From: Agromyces sp. H66
GTDB taxonomy: Bacteria; Actinomycetota; Actinomycetes; Actinomycetales; Microbacteriaceae
Direction of reading: 5' to 3'
Assembly: GCF_004959775.1 (NCBI RefSeq)
Contig: NZ_SJZG01000001.1
Span: 248,001 to 312,000, forward strand
DNA length: 64,000 nt
Below are positions 54,768 through 63,240 of the stretch, piece by piece. Each line of letters begins with the position of its first letter. Within the stretch, counting starts at the first letter, position 1. A program made the position numbers and the translations under genes. The notes beneath the pieces are model-generated. The model did no database searches. It had not been told where the DNA came from and worked only from the letters and a program-made list of their open reading frames with translations.

Positions 54768-54964
54768 CGTGCACCTCCAGGGGTCTTGGGCCCATTCTGG
54801 CCTGCGCGGCGGCGCGCCCTCTAGTGCTGATCGGCGAGGCGCTCGCTCGGGTACCGAGCGGGCCACCGAGTCGGCCGCCGAGTCAAGCCGCCGAGTCAAG
54901 CCGTTGACGGATGCCGCAGTCCCGCCGGACGCTCGTGGGAGAAGCCGCGAGTGAGGAGCATCCG

Positions 54965-55219
54965 ATGAGCGATCCCGATCAGCCGGGCCCCGACCGCCCC
55001 GACCGGCAGCAGGGCTCCGGCGAGCCCGACGACACGGGTGTCGGGCTCGCCGCCGAGGCCGAGACGACGCCGCACGCCGAGACGACGCCGCACGCCGAGA
55101 AGACGCCGCACGCCGAGAAGACGCCGCACAAGGGGCCCGACGTCAACGACCTCCAAGCCGACAACGCGGTCGAGGAGGAGACGATCGAGTCGGTCGACCC
55201 CGACAACGCCCCGGCGTAG
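54965..55219 (+). CDS. Small acidic protein with hexapeptide repeats
   Basis: An 84-residue hydrophilic protein. MSDPDQPGPDRPDRQQ leads into four AE(T/K)TPH repeats, followed by KGPDVNDLQADNAVEEETIE. There is no secondary-structure-forming core. An in-frame ATG 54 nt upstream would add a poor N-terminus. GAGGAG lies upstream of ATG 54965. Similar disordered short proteins occur in Microbacteriaceae and have no known role. Confidence 0.68.
   Translation: MSDPDQPGPDRPDRQQGSGEPDDTGVGLAAEAETTPHAETTPHAEKTPHAEKTPHKGPDVNDLQADNAVEEETIESVDPDNAPA
55058..55129 (+). repeat. Four in-frame 18-nt tandem repeats
   Basis: Units at 55058, 55076, 55094 and 55112 are GCCGAGACGACGCCGCAC (twice) and GCCGAGAAGACGCCGCAC (twice), encoding AETTPH or AEKTPH. 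Confidence 0.9.
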
Positions 55220-57099: not shown

Positions 57100-57510
57100 A
57101 TGGGCAGCGTCATCGAGTTCACGCGAGGTACCGGATCGCACGCGCCGAAGCCGCTCTGGAGGCACGTGCTCGGCGAGGTGCTGCGCGGCGAGCGGCTCGA
57201 CCAGGAGCGGATCCTCACCGAGGTCGCCGCGACCGCGGGCGTCTCGCCGCAGTACCTCTCCGAGATCGAGCGCGGACGCAAGGAGCCGTCGAGCGAGATC
57301 CTCGGGTCCGTCGCCGATGCGCTCGGGCTGGAACTGTTCGACGTCGTGCGCCGCGTGGGCGACCGGCTCGGTGCCCGACTCGACGAGGAGCGGCGCGAGG
57401 CGGAGCGGCGCGAGAGGCTGCTCCTCGAGGCGTCGCTGGCATTCCGGGCCGACGCGCTGCCGGGGCATCCGCCCAGCGCAGTCGCCGACGTGTTCCTGCT
57501 CGCGGCCTGA
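57100..57510 (+). CDS. XRE regulator, ClgR/PopR-like
   Basis: A 136-residue regulator. The HTH, at residues 27-85, reads VLRGERLDQERILTEVAATA with VSPQYLSEIERGRKEPSSEI, closely resembling ClgR/PopR of actinobacteria, which activate clp protease genes and are degraded by Clp. A charged helix (EERREAERRERLLLE) and a C-terminal DVFLLAA tail follow. A hydrophobic -AA end is a known type of Clp degradation signal. It is convergent with the clpP pair and may control it. The ATG is set by a leaderless -10. Confidence 0.85.
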   Translation: MGSVIEFTRGTGSHAPKPLWRHVLGEVLRGERLDQERILTEVAATAGVSPQYLSEIERGRKEPSSEILGSVADALGLELFDVVRRVGDRLGARLDEERREAERRERLLLEASLAFRADALPGHPPSAVADVFLLAA

Positions 57511-57574: not shown

Positions 57575-58159
57575 TCAGCCCGCGAGCACGCGGTCGGCGA
57601 GCCCGTAGTCGACGGCGGCCTGCGCGGGCAGGATGAGGTCGCGGTCGGTGTCGTGACGCAGCTTCGCGACATCCTGGCCGGTGTCGGCCGCGAGCGCCGT
57701 CTCCAGGTCGGCCCGCACCCGCAGTACCTCGTCGGCATGCAGGATCAGGTCGGGCACCGTCCCCCGCCCCTGCGACGCGGGCTGGTGCAGCGTCACCTTG
57801 CCGTGCGGGAGGATCGCCCGCAGGCCCTTCGCGCCACCCGCGAGGAGCACCGCCGCGGGCCCGCCCGCCTGGCCGACGCACGTCGTCGCGACATCCGGCC
57901 GGATGTGCTGCATGGTGTCGTAGACCGCGAGCGCCGCGCCCGGCGAGCCGCCCGGCGAGTTGAGGTAGAGGCTGATCGGCGTCTCGCTCGACTCCGACGC
58001 GAGGTGCAGCAGCTGTGCGATGAGCACGTTCGCGACGCCGTCGTCGATCTCGGTGCCGAGGTAGACGATGCGTTCCGACAGCAGGCGGCTGTAGACGTCG
58101 AGCGAGCGCTCCGTGTTGCCGCGCTTCTCGATGACGTAGGGGATCGTGTAGGTACTCAT
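57575..58159 (-). CDS. ClpP-like subunit lacking the catalytic serine
   Basis: A 194-residue ClpP-fold protein. The axial and handle regions are recognisable (RIVYLGTEIDDGVANVLIAQ, YLNSPGGSPGAALAVYDTMQ). In the nucleophile loop, CVGQAGGPAAVLLAGG, the position of the usual Ser (GQAAS) is Gly100 (codon at 57860-57862). His125 in VTLHQPAS and Asp174 in DTDRDLILPA remain. It is thus probably a non-catalytic partner, like ClpR proteins. The ATG overlaps the stop of the next clpP, giving a coupled pair. Confidence 0.9.
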   Translation of the reverse strand: MSTYTIPYVIEKRGNTERSLDVYSRLLSERIVYLGTEIDDGVANVLIAQLLHLASESSETPISLYLNSPGGSPGAALAVYDTMQHIRPDVATTCVGQAGGPAAVLLAGGAKGLRAILPHGKVTLHQPASQGRGTVPDLILHADEVLRVRADLETALAADTGQDVAKLRHDTDRDLILPAQAAVDYGLADRVLAG

Positions 58160-58782
58160 GCCGACACCCCCAAGCCGGTCATCACGCCCCGGCCGGGGAT
58201 CGGCATCAGCTCCTCGACCTCGTGGGCGACGCGGTCGATGAAGCCGTAGTCGACTGCCTGGTCGGCCGTGAACCACCGGTCGCGCAGCGAGTCCTGCGCG
58301 ATGCGCTCGATCGGCTGGCCGGTGAGCTCGGCGGTGATGCCGAGCACGGTGTCGCGCGTGTAGCGGAGGTCCTCGGCCTGCAGCTCGATGTCGACCGCGG
58401 TGCCGCCGATGCCGGCCGACCCCTGGTGCATGAGGATGCGCGCGTGCGGCAGCGCGAACCGCTTTCCCGGGGTGCCCGCCGTGAGCAGGAACTGTCCGGC
58501 GCTCGCCGCCCAGCCGACGGCGATGGTCGCGACGTCGTTCGGGATGGCGCGCATCACGTCCATGATGGCGAGCATCGCCGGCACCGAGCCGCCGGGGGAG
58601 TTGATCCAGAACCGGATGTCGCGGCGAGGGTCGTCGGCCGACAGGGTGAGCAACTGGGCGATGAGGCGGTTGCCGCCCGCCTGGTCGAGCTCCTCGCCGA
58701 GGACGATGATGCGCTCGTGGTAGAGCCGCCGCGTGAGTTCGGCGTCGATCGGCTGGATGGGTGTGGACTGGTCTTCGCTCAT
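58156..58782 (-). CDS. ClpP protease subunit
   Basis: A 208-residue ClpP with an intact triad: Ser94 in VGWAASAGQFLL, His119 in ILMHQGSAG and Asp168 in SLRDRWFTADQ. NSPGGSVPAMLAIMDVMR and ELTGQPIERIAQDS are typical. It forms barrel rings that degrade substrates delivered by Clp ATPases. Here it is co-translated with a Ser-less paralogue, suggesting a mixed ring, as in clpP3-clpP4 systems. The start ATG 58782 has a weak ribosome site (GGACGC). Confidence 0.95.
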   Translation of the reverse strand: MSEDQSTPIQPIDAELTRRLYHERIIVLGEELDQAGGNRLIAQLLTLSADDPRRDIRFWINSPGGSVPAMLAIMDVMRAIPNDVATIAVGWAASAGQFLLTAGTPGKRFALPHARILMHQGSAGIGGTAVDIELQAEDLRYTRDTVLGITAELTGQPIERIAQDSLRDRWFTADQAVDYGFIDRVAHEVEELMPIPGRGVMTGLGVSA

Positions 58783-58824
58783 GCGTCCAGCGTGCGTCGT
58801 GAACGGATGCCGCGGGGCGGGTGC

Positions 58825-58954
58825 TGCCCACGGCAGTGCTGCCGTGGGCAGTGCTGCCCACGGCAGCGGCGCGGTCGGCGGCAGCGGCGCGGTCGGCGGC
58901 GCAAAGGTCGCAGTCGTGCAGGCTTCGGAGCCGCGGAGGTCGCACGACTGCGAC
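58825..58954. repeat. Nested inverted and direct repeats between clpP and marR
   Basis: TGCCCACGGCA (58825), TGCCGTGGGCA (58840) and TGCCCACGGCA again (58855) alternate with GTGC spacers. GCGGCGCGGTCGGCGGCA is then repeated at 58866 and 58884 (17 of 18). A hairpin follows, GTCGCAGTCGTGC (58907-58919) with GCACGACTGCGAC (58942-58954) and an inner GGCT-TCGG-AGCC. The last probably terminates the MarR transcript. Confidence 0.8.
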
Positions 58955-58979: not shown

Positions 58980-59501
58980 TCAGCCCGCGCGCGCGACCGC
59001 CGGGCCCTCGCTGAACTGGCACGACGTGGCCGTGAGCCGCCCGTCGGGATCGAGCCGCGCGAGCACCGCGCCCGCGATCGCGTAGAGCTGCTCGAGCTGC
59101 TCGGGCGTGAGCACGTCGAGCACGCTGGCGCGCACCGTCTCGACATGGCCCGGCGCGGCATCGGCGATGAGCTGCAGACCGGCTTCGGTGATCGTCGCGT
59201 TCGTGGCGCGCCGGTCGGTCGGGCACGGGAACCGGCGGATCAGCCCGCGCTCCTCGAGGCGGCGCGCGACGTGCGAGAGGCGGGGGAGCGTGGCGTTGGT
59301 GCGAGAGGCGAGTTCGGTCATGCGCATCGTGCGGTCGGGTGCCTCCGCGAGTGCCATGAGCGCGACGTACTCGAAGTGCGTGAGCCCCGCGTCTCGCAGC
59401 AGCTGCGCGTCGAGCGCGCCGGGGAGCAATTCGGCGAGCGCGACGAGGCGCACCCAGGCCGCGGATTCCTCGGTGCTCAACCATCTCGTGTCGGCGCTCA
59501 T
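58980..59501 (-). CDS. MarR-family regulator
   Basis: A 173-residue MarR-type regulator. ALAEAPDRTMRMTELASRTN and TLPRLSHVARRLEERGLIRR form the winged HTH. CPTDRRATNATITEAG is the wing, typical of the family. GTVR-like leucine-rich helices flank it. ATG 59501 has TAGACT exactly at -12 to -7, so it is leaderless. It is divergent from an NADP-binding reductase and likely controls it. Confidence 0.92.
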   Translation of the reverse strand: MSADTRWLSTEESAAWVRLVALAELLPGALDAQLLRDAGLTHFEYVALMALAEAPDRTMRMTELASRTNATLPRLSHVARRLEERGLIRRFPCPTDRRATNATITEAGLQLIADAAPGHVETVRASVLDVLTPEQLEQLYAIAGAVLARLDPDGRLTATSCQFSEGPAVARAG

Positions 59502-61797: not shown

Positions 61798-63240
61798 GTG
61801 ATCGACGTCACGGTCGTGGGGAGCGGGCCCAACGGGCTCGTCGCCGCGGTCGTGGCCGCGCGCGCGGGACTCTCGGTGCGCGTGCTCGAGGGCGCCCCGA
61901 CGATCGGCGGCGGGGTGCGAACGGCCGAACTCACCCTGCCCGGGTTCCGGCACGACGTGTGCTCGGCGGTGCATCCGGCGGCGCTCGCCTCGCCCGTGTT
62001 CCGGCGGCTCGGCCTCCTCGACCGGATCGACTGGATCGTGCCCGAGGTCTCGTACGCGCATCCGCTCGACGGTGGTCGTGCTGGAGTGGCCTGGCGAGAC
62101 CTCGACCGCACGGTCGACGCCCTGGGTGCCGACGGCCCGGCGTGGCGCCGGCTCATCGGCCCCCTCCTCGCGCGGCGGCGGGGCGTCGTGTCGTTCACGG
62201 GGTCGCAGCTGCTGCGCGTGCCGCGCGACCCGATCGCCGCGGTGCGCTTCGGCCTGCGCGCGCTCGAGCAGGGTACGTCGGCGTGGAACCTTCGGTTCGA
62301 TGGGGATGTCGCGCCCGCGCTCTTCACCGGGGTCGTCGCACATGCCGCCGGCGGCATGCCCTCGCTGCCGTCGGCAGGCGCCGGACTCCTCCTCGCGATG
62401 CACGCGCACGGCGCAGGTTGGGGATTCCCCGCCGGTGGATCGCAAGCCATCGCCGACGCGCTCGCCGACGAATTGCGCGCGCTGGGCGGGGAGATCGTGA
62501 CGGATGCCCCGGTGTCGCGCCTCTCGGAGGTGTCCGATTCCCGGGCTGTCCTGCTCGACACCGCACCCGACCTGCTGTTCACGGCCGACCTGCCGGCGCG
62601 GTACGCCCGGGCGCTGCGCCGCTACCGATACGGGTCCGGCGTCGCGAAGGTCGACTTCGCGCTCGATGGGCCGGTGCCCTGGGCGAATCCCGACGTGCGA
62701 CTCGCGCCGACCGTGCACGTCGGCGGATCGCGGGCCGAGATGGCGGCGGCCGAGAACGCCGTGCGGCGTGGCTACCAACCCGGAGCGGACGGCGCGCCGG
62801 CGCGGCATCCGTACGTGCTCGTGACGCAGCCGAGCGTCGCCGACCCGACCCGGGCGCCGGCGGGCAAGCACGTGCTGTGGGCGTACACGCACGTGCCGGC
62901 GGGCTCGACGCTCGATGCCACCGAGCTGATCACGGCGGAGATCGAGCGGTTCGCGCCCGGGTTCCGGGACACGATCCTCGCGTCGGCGTCGAGCACGGCG
63001 ACCCAGATCGCCGAGCACAACCCCAACTACGTCGGCGGTGACATCTACGCCGGTGAACTGACGATGGCGCAGCTCGTGAAACGGCCCGTGGTGTCGCCCG
63101 CGCCGTGGCGCACGCCGGTGCCCGGCGTCTACCTCTGCTCGAGCGCGACCCCGCCCGGGCCGGCCGTGCACGGCATGAACGGCTGGTGGGCGGCGCGCCT
63201 CGCGCTGCGCGAGCGGTTCGGGATCGGCTTCCCGGGGTAG
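61798..63240 (+). CDS. Phytoene-dehydrogenase-like FAD oxidoreductase
   Basis: A 480-residue flavoprotein of the CrtI/RetSat/phytoene dehydrogenase type. The dinucleotide motif is VTVVGSGPNGLVAAVVAARAG. GGGVRTAELTLPGFRHDVCS follows, and the C-terminal motif GVYLCSSATPPGPAVHGMNG closes the FAD site. It desaturates or isomerises hydrophobic substrates. No carotenoid genes (crtB/crtE) are seen nearby, so the substrate is open. GTG 61798 lies 16 nt after the NUDIX stop, suggesting a shared transcript. Confidence 0.93.
   Translation: MIDVTVVGSGPNGLVAAVVAARAGLSVRVLEGAPTIGGGVRTAELTLPGFRHDVCSAVHPAALASPVFRRLGLLDRIDWIVPEVSYAHPLDGGRAGVAWRDLDRTVDALGADGPAWRRLIGPLLARRRGVVSFTGSQLLRVPRDPIAAVRFGLRALEQGTSAWNLRFDGDVAPALFTGVVAHAAGGMPSLPSAGAGLLLAMHAHGAGWGFPAGGSQAIADALADELRALGGEIVTDAPVSRLSEVSDSRAVLLDTAPDLLFTADLPARYARALRRYRYGSGVAKVDFALDGPVPWANPDVRLAPTVHVGGSRAEMAAAENAVRRGYQPGADGAPARHPYVLVTQPSVADPTRAPAGKHVLWAYTHVPAGSTLDATELITAEIERFAPGFRDTILASASSTATQIAEHNPNYVGGDIYAGELTMAQLVKRPVVSPAPWRTPVPGVYLCSSATPPGPAVHGMNGWWAARLALRERFGIGFPG

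Follow-up and report, generated by a model that had tools for sequence, protein, structure and literature searches.

A second clpP pair in Agromyces sp. H66

The window, a 64,000-nucleotide stretch of the Agromyces sp. H66 genome, encodes two consecutive ClpP proteins on its minus strand. The upstream gene, clpP3 (58156..58782), encodes a 208-aa ClpP with an intact catalytic triad (S94/H119/D168) and without the axial (N-terminal pore) loop. The downstream gene, clpP4 (57575..58159), encodes a 194-aa ClpP that has the axial loop and retains His125 and Asp174. When both proteins are aligned with E. coli ClpP (triad S97/H122/D171, mature numbering), the column of the catalytic Ser is occupied in ClpP4 by Gly100 (codon GGG, 57860..57862, minus strand). 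Judged by the Ser-His-Asp triad of an active ClpP peptidase, ClpP3 is complete and ClpP4 reads Gly-His-Asp. Translation and alignment thus bear out the residues that an earlier note on this DNA had assigned to the two triads.

The clpP3 stop and the clpP4 start share an ATGA (58156..58159, minus strand; ORF listing and translation), a 4-bp overlap that is probably associated with translational coupling and that supports the coupled pair described in the same note. All 35 Agromyces clpP3-clpP4 loci share this overlap, as do 180 of the 220 loci in the full set (identical duplicates included; starts chosen by script). The genome contains four ClpP genes, and the housekeeping clpP1P2 pair sits on another contig; the triads of the housekeeping ClpP1 and ClpP2 are both complete (SHD).

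Two regulator genes flank the pair. A ClgR/PopR-like helix-turn-helix (HTH) regulator (57100..57510, plus strand) is convergent with clpP4 and ends in LLAA, a putative ClpP degron. A gene for a MarR-type regulator (58980..59501, minus strand) precedes clpP3 on the same strand, and a relative of it is found upstream of clpP3 in 10/30 Agromyces loci (L005-L034; short fetched flank). Elsewhere in the window, four near-perfect 18-bp repeats (55058-55129, 98% matches) lie within a small ORF (54911-55219, plus strand) and encode an AEKTPH-type repeat.

Regulator, operators and promoter

The HTH regulator scores 74.5 bits against the ClgR model NF041677 (cut-off 170) and is outscored against this model by another gene of the same genome. 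We therefore describe it as ClgR-like rather than ClgR, since its score falls below the equivalog cut-off. ClgR-type substrates of ClpP1P2 are very likely marked for degradation by two alanines at the C-terminus (PMC9775585), and 176 of 205 regulator genes of this kind near clpP3P4 (duplicates included) end in AA.

Upstream of clpP3 are three CTGCC-N3-GGCAG dyads, 15 bp apart (58824..58866, minus strand), that are putative PopR-type operators; the PopR box is given as TCTGCC-3N-GGCGAATCTGCC-3N-GGCAGA (PMC9775585). The window contains four such dyads (the fourth copy at 62365) against 0.12 expected, and a search of this genome assembly for the exact tandem dyad revealed no further copy. At 58821-58900, the array of 15-bp units passes directly into another tandem repeat, whose unit is 18 bp long. 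Across 219 clpP3 upstream regions, we identified 65 occurrences of the strict dyad in 62 loci, against 2.5 expected; the strict PopR pattern is present in only 8/40 Agromyces upstream regions (identical duplicates included). A relaxed dyad, chosen after viewing the sequences, occurs in 30/35 distinct Agromyces upstream regions and 167/214 overall, against at most 8 in shuffles that, like those for the strict dyad, preserve base composition and not dinucleotides. Most copies start between -54 and -56 or between -69 and -71 relative to clpP3.

A putative -10 element (CACGCT, 58789..58794, minus strand) lies 6 nt before the clpP3 ATG, consistent with a leaderless start. The pattern [CT]ANNNT, likewise chosen after the sequences had been viewed, precedes the clpP3 ATG by exactly 6 nt in 115/214 distinct upstream regions and 30/35 from Agromyces, compared with a mean of 1.6 and a maximum of 6 in mononucleotide shuffles, which again keep base composition and not dinucleotides. 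These observations suggest that the clpP3 transcript is leaderless, with an activator bound upstream.

This organization resembles the clpP3-clpP4 operon with PopR of Streptomyces lividans (Viala 2000, 2002; via PMC9765437, PMC12607617, PMC9775585). In both cases, a second bicistronic clpP pair exists beside an intact clpP1P2, a regulator that is a ClgR paralogue adjoins it, and TCTGCC-N3-GGCAGA-type dyads precede clpP3. S. lividans requires clpP1clpP2 or clpP3clpP4 for viability and expresses clpP3clpP4 only when ClpP1P2 fails (PMC9765437). By analogy, ClpP1P2 would normally degrade the PopR-like activator of Agromyces, with the AA at the C-terminus of the activator as the signal; upon failure of ClpP1P2 the activator would accumulate and switch on the probably leaderless clpP3P4 transcript.

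A named pair on plasmid p1 of Streptomyces fungicidicus (L156), which falls inside the ClpP4 clade, shares with Agromyces an adjacent HTH gene, the same dyads and a broken ClpP4 triad. The two differ in that the clade of L156 lost His (to Gly) and keeps Ser, whereas Agromyces lost Ser (to Gly) and keeps His, and in that the clpP3 start looks leaderless in Agromyces and not in L156. Large plasmids carry clpP3P4 in Streptomyces, Tsukamurella, Embleya and Prescottella (L156, L157, L158 and L159), with an HTH gene adjoining in all three annotated cases. The module may therefore move between lineages.

Gly100 across Agromyces

We identified ClpP4 loci in 31 of 37 same-genus genomes (that of H66 included), and position 100 is Gly in all 31 (the last being L146). 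Among 35 distinct Agromyces ClpP4 sequences, position 100 is Gly in 35, encoded by GGG (15), GGC (13), GGT (4) and GGA (3). Position 101 is Pro in 34 of these sequences and His125 is present in all 35; Asp174 is present in 32 and replaced by Glu in three. No internal stop is found in any of the 35. The ClpP4 proteins of L009, L011, L012 and L018 are identical to those of named Agromyces species (L160-L163), and in the genome-contig scan seven Agromyces loci top the named relatives among the matches listed, with 75-93% identity.

The median pairwise dN/dS within Agromyces is 0.30 for ClpP4 and 0.37 for ClpP3 (595 pairs each). Housekeeping clpP genes give values of about 0.04-0.14 (four Agromyces), so that clpP3 and clpP4 both evolve faster.

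Gly at codon 100 might in principle be an error of sequencing or assembly, and the earlier note had named an alignment of orthologues at the Ser position as a check on this. We found nothing in favour of an error, and the presence of Gly in 35/35 distinct Agromyces sequences through four codons leads us to reject it as hardly credible. Because Gly is invariant while all four of its codons are used, and because dN/dS is 0.30, the sequence comparison indicates that Gly100 is real, old and kept, and that purifying selection on clpP4 is no weaker than that on clpP3.

Triad states in the wider ClpP4 family

The wider set comprises 252 loci: that of H66 (L002), 30 same-genus loci, 26 new loci from a class-level search of 394 genomes (weaker matches fetched in part only), sets of 95 and 4, 80 loci from the genome-contig scan (the best 80 of at least 576 stretches encoding a relative) and a further 16. 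Five loci with a ClpP4 identical to another and L166, which is cut by a contig end, were left out before counting, and 31 sequences were set apart as P2-type, including L118 and L151 on the basis of tree position. In 250 of the 252 loci, which come from many actinobacterial groups, P4 or P2 has another clpP as its neighbour; of the two exceptions, L076 is truncated by a contig end and L151 is P2-type.

The triad is intact in 45 and broken in 170 of 215 distinct ClpP4 sequences, a ratio that gives no prevalence since the loci are best matches to an Agromyces query. Written as the letters at the Ser, His and Asp positions, the states are GHD (61), AHD (50), SHD (45), SGD (16), WHT (8), EHN (6), GHE (5), EHH (5), SHN (4), WHD (2), SDD (2), SHS (2) and GND (2), with FHN, AQD, SGE, SHH, ATE, GHQ and DHD found once each. 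Among the ClpP3 partners, SHD is found in 214/214 readable sequences, the 215th (L205) being cut by a contig end at the Ser. P1-type sequences are SHD in 30/30 cases and P2-type sequences in 30/31.

Broken ClpP4 proteins are present in many genera, and both states can occur within one genus. Among named distinct sequences, Gordonia has three GHD and two SHD, Nocardioides has five WHT, one WHD, one SDD and three SHD, and Cellulomonas has one GHD and two SHD. The feature is thus limited neither to Agromyces nor to Ser, as orthologues lose Ser, His or Asp. In the loop, SEGG takes the place of SPGG in 73 of the 170 ClpP4 with a broken triad and in 0 of the 45 intact ones; the loci concerned are those of the Ser-to-Ala/Gly clade.

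The spread of these states bears on whether His125 and Asp174 might serve another nucleophile or another reaction. The retention of His125 in 35/35 Agromyces sequences is compatible with such a different chemistry. However, Asp174 is Glu in three of the 35, and other lineages lose His or Asp, or two residues at once (EHN, WHT, ATE). Because lineages lose different residues, no common replacement chemistry fits, and we consider an alternative nucleophile very improbable.

Phylogeny and number of losses

In a quick tree of the four paralogues, ClpP4 is sister to ClpP2 among the actinobacterial sequences used (SH-aLRT 97 on the P2 side and 86 on the P4 side), and ClpP3 falls among P1-type sequences. 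We mapped intact and broken states with the trait columns excluded. Parsimony gives six changes on a 168-sequence tree and seven on a careful 69-sequence tree.

A single origin of all broken ClpP4 as one clade is rejected (p-AU 3.9e-5). Placing the Ser-lost sequences in one clade, with L064 left out, is also rejected (AU p 0.013). A Ser-lost clade that allows two intact Cellulomonas sequences inside is not rejected (AU p 0.45), nor is a clade of the eight Gly sequences around Agromyces without these two (AU p 0.15). The Cellulomonas sequences (L173 and L178) encode a complete SHD ClpP4 nested within the Gly-type clade, a position that could possibly reflect a regain of Ser or several separate losses. 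The Ser losses may accordingly represent one loss followed by a regain, or several losses.

As a safe count, the tree indicates that the ClpP4 triad was lost at least four times independently: by loss of Ser, by His to Gly (in the clade with the named Streptomyces sequence), by His to Asp, and by Asp to Asn, His or Ser. The His-to-Asp clade includes a Nocardioides metagenome-assembled genome, and a single sequence, L120, would make a fifth loss. These losses must be separate, because clades with different lost residues each still keep the residue that the others lost.

The residues left over after a loss give a mixed picture of special constraint. In the Agromyces-type clade, His125 is unchanged, while positions 100 and 174 vary at about the rate of an average site; all three triad positions change in the W/A/F clade. 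Rates of this kind do not by themselves point to selection for the dead state outside Agromyces.

These rates are relevant to the possibility that ClpP4 is decaying, with the triad lost first and the gene next, as ClpP1P2 does the work. Besides the average rates at positions 100 and 174, decay would agree with the six of 37 same-genus genomes that have two ClpP genes only and with a clpP4 dN/dS above that of housekeeping clpP. Against this, all 35 Agromyces sequences are free of internal stops at a dN/dS no higher than that of ClpP3; the operators, the C-terminal AA of the regulator, the gene overlap and the partner are all conserved; and broken ClpP4 is spread over many genera. On this evidence we think decay improbable, and favour a ClpP4 whose fold would have been maintained after triad loss.

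Fold, axial loop and docking pocket

The AlphaFold model of ClpP4 (mean pLDDT 88) has a complete ClpP fold, with an axial hairpin (strands 8-13 and 16-21) and a handle helix (135-160). The 50 best PDB entries listed in a structure search with this model are all ClpP (Z about 29). As modelled, ClpP4 thus keeps the ClpP fold. Columns 7, 8, 12 and 15 of the E. coli axial loop are gapped in 90-100% of the 215 ClpP3 sequences and filled in ClpP4 and ClpP2.

The predicted chaperone-docking pocket is less well preserved in Agromyces ClpP4. Relative to E. coli, F49 is replaced by His, Y60 by Ser, F82 by His, F112 by Ala and I90 by Thr, with L48, Y62, L114 and L189 kept; Y62, which belongs to the hydrophobic patch, is shared by 99-100% of ClpP4 sequences. 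E. coli Y60, Y62 and F82 correspond to precursor residues Y74, Y76 and F96 (PMC4416901). This erosion weakens the case for docking by ClpP4 in Agromyces without overturning it.

A predicted backup Clp core with one inactive subunit

We consider it probable that this part of the window encodes a backup Clp core, namely a clpP3-clpP4 operon under PopR control in which the downstream gene encodes a non-cutting ClpP. As judged from sequence comparison and tree position, ClpP4 is a sister of ClpP2 that has no nucleophile, retains an axial loop and is under purifying selection, and ClpP3 groups with ClpP1.

Several observations on ClpP1P2 provide a template for this core. First, P3 resembles P1 and P4 resembles P2 of Mycobacterium tuberculosis and Streptomyces, by tree and axial loop (actinobacterial sequences). 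Second, the catalysis of P2 is dispensable and P2 docks the chaperones (PMC9067928, PMC9765437): M. tuberculosis depends on the activity of ClpP1 alone, ClpP2 activity being non-essential and ClpP2 scaffolding the chaperones (PMC9067928), and ClpP1 of Streptomyces hawaiiensis combined with ClpP2 S131A retains full proteolytic activity (PMC9765437). Finally, the triads of ClpP1 and ClpP2 are complete, whereas in ClpP4 the dispensable site would be gone by nature.

By this template, ClpP3 and ClpP4 would share a single barrel. Its likeliest layout is one ring of each subunit, with the P3 ring stacked onto the P4 ring, and it would contain seven active sites, every one of them in ClpP3. ClpP4 would provide the axial gate and would also be the subunit on which ClpX/ClpC dock, the latter being a role that ClpP2 has in Mycobacterium and Streptomyces. 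The triad of ClpP4 could then be lost repeatedly, and by different residues, because its chemistry would be dispensable in such a barrel. We infer the assembly and the docking by homology, and the leaderless start and the control from the features described above. Points that weigh against this reading are the eroded pocket of Agromyces ClpP4, the faster evolution of both genes than of housekeeping clpP, the two intact Cellulomonas sequences within the Gly-type clade and the average rates of change at positions 100 and 174.

The two subunits could instead be arranged as in cyanobacterial ClpP3/R, with P3 and P4 alternating in each ring and P4 diluting or tuning the active sites. The Synechococcus complex contains three ClpP3 and four ClpR per ring (PMC4673316), and mixed rings of this type would likewise hold about half the active sites. 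However, the nearest relatives, ClpP1P2, make one stacked ring of each subunit (PMC9067928, PMC8182300), and an axial loop that is present in ClpP4 but not in ClpP3 fits two different faces rather than alternation. We therefore regard mixed rings as unlikely, and consider a live P3 ring that carries a dead P4 ring likelier. For the mixed ring with half the active sites proposed in the earlier note, the hetero-barrel with half the sites still appears likely, and the mixed ring itself is too strong a reading.

The functional likeness to ClpP/ClpR drawn in that note is nonetheless upheld. Like ClpR of cyanobacteria and plastids, ClpP4 is a ClpP relative without a complete triad that is partnered with an active ClpP (PMC4673316). 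ClpR differs in residing in mixed rings; ClpP4 is sister to actinobacterial ClpP2 among the sequences used, and its lineages lost different residues. ClpP4 also resembles Listeria monocytogenes ClpP1, a heteromeric partner with an unusual triad, in a system where hetero-assembly and partial inhibition raise the affinity for ClpX (PMC5361862). The Listeria ClpP1 triad, which has Asn for Asp, is active in complex with ClpP2 (PMC9765437), whereas ClpP4 lacks the nucleophile.

The view that no such feature had been described for this actinobacterial pair proves too strong. One clpP allele without catalytic residues has been noted for Streptomyces coelicolor and Nocardia asteroides (d'Andrea et al. 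2022; PMC9067928), in a passage that mentions neither Agromyces nor clpP4. In the literature searched, outside which subscription papers lay, we found no statement of a repeated one-sided loss in ClpP4 or of the Agromyces case. The two Viala papers, from 2000 and 2002, may mention the Streptomyces ClpP4 residue. If the S. lividans ClpP4 also lacks His, like the Streptomyces clade, then there is already a cell that lives on a core whose P4 is dead.

Bacterial two-gene ClpP barrels raise the question of why two subunits are kept and whether both must cut. Several lineages appear to have answered it alike, in that one partner has given up its active site through differing changes, whereas the other retains it in all readable cases of the sample. 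On balance we favour the view that catalysis in actinobacterial two-gene Clp cores drifts one way: P4 would have died at least four times and no sampled P3 has, leaving a half-dead backup barrel whose dead ring serves as dock and gate. If true, evolution has done again what the 'forced asymmetry' experiment did in Mycobacterium. Such species would offer natural half-dead barrels for structural work, in which a division of labour between P3 (catalysis) and P4 (gate and docking) is testable, and compounds directed at the catalytic serine are predicted to be able to hit only ClpP3 in their backup core.
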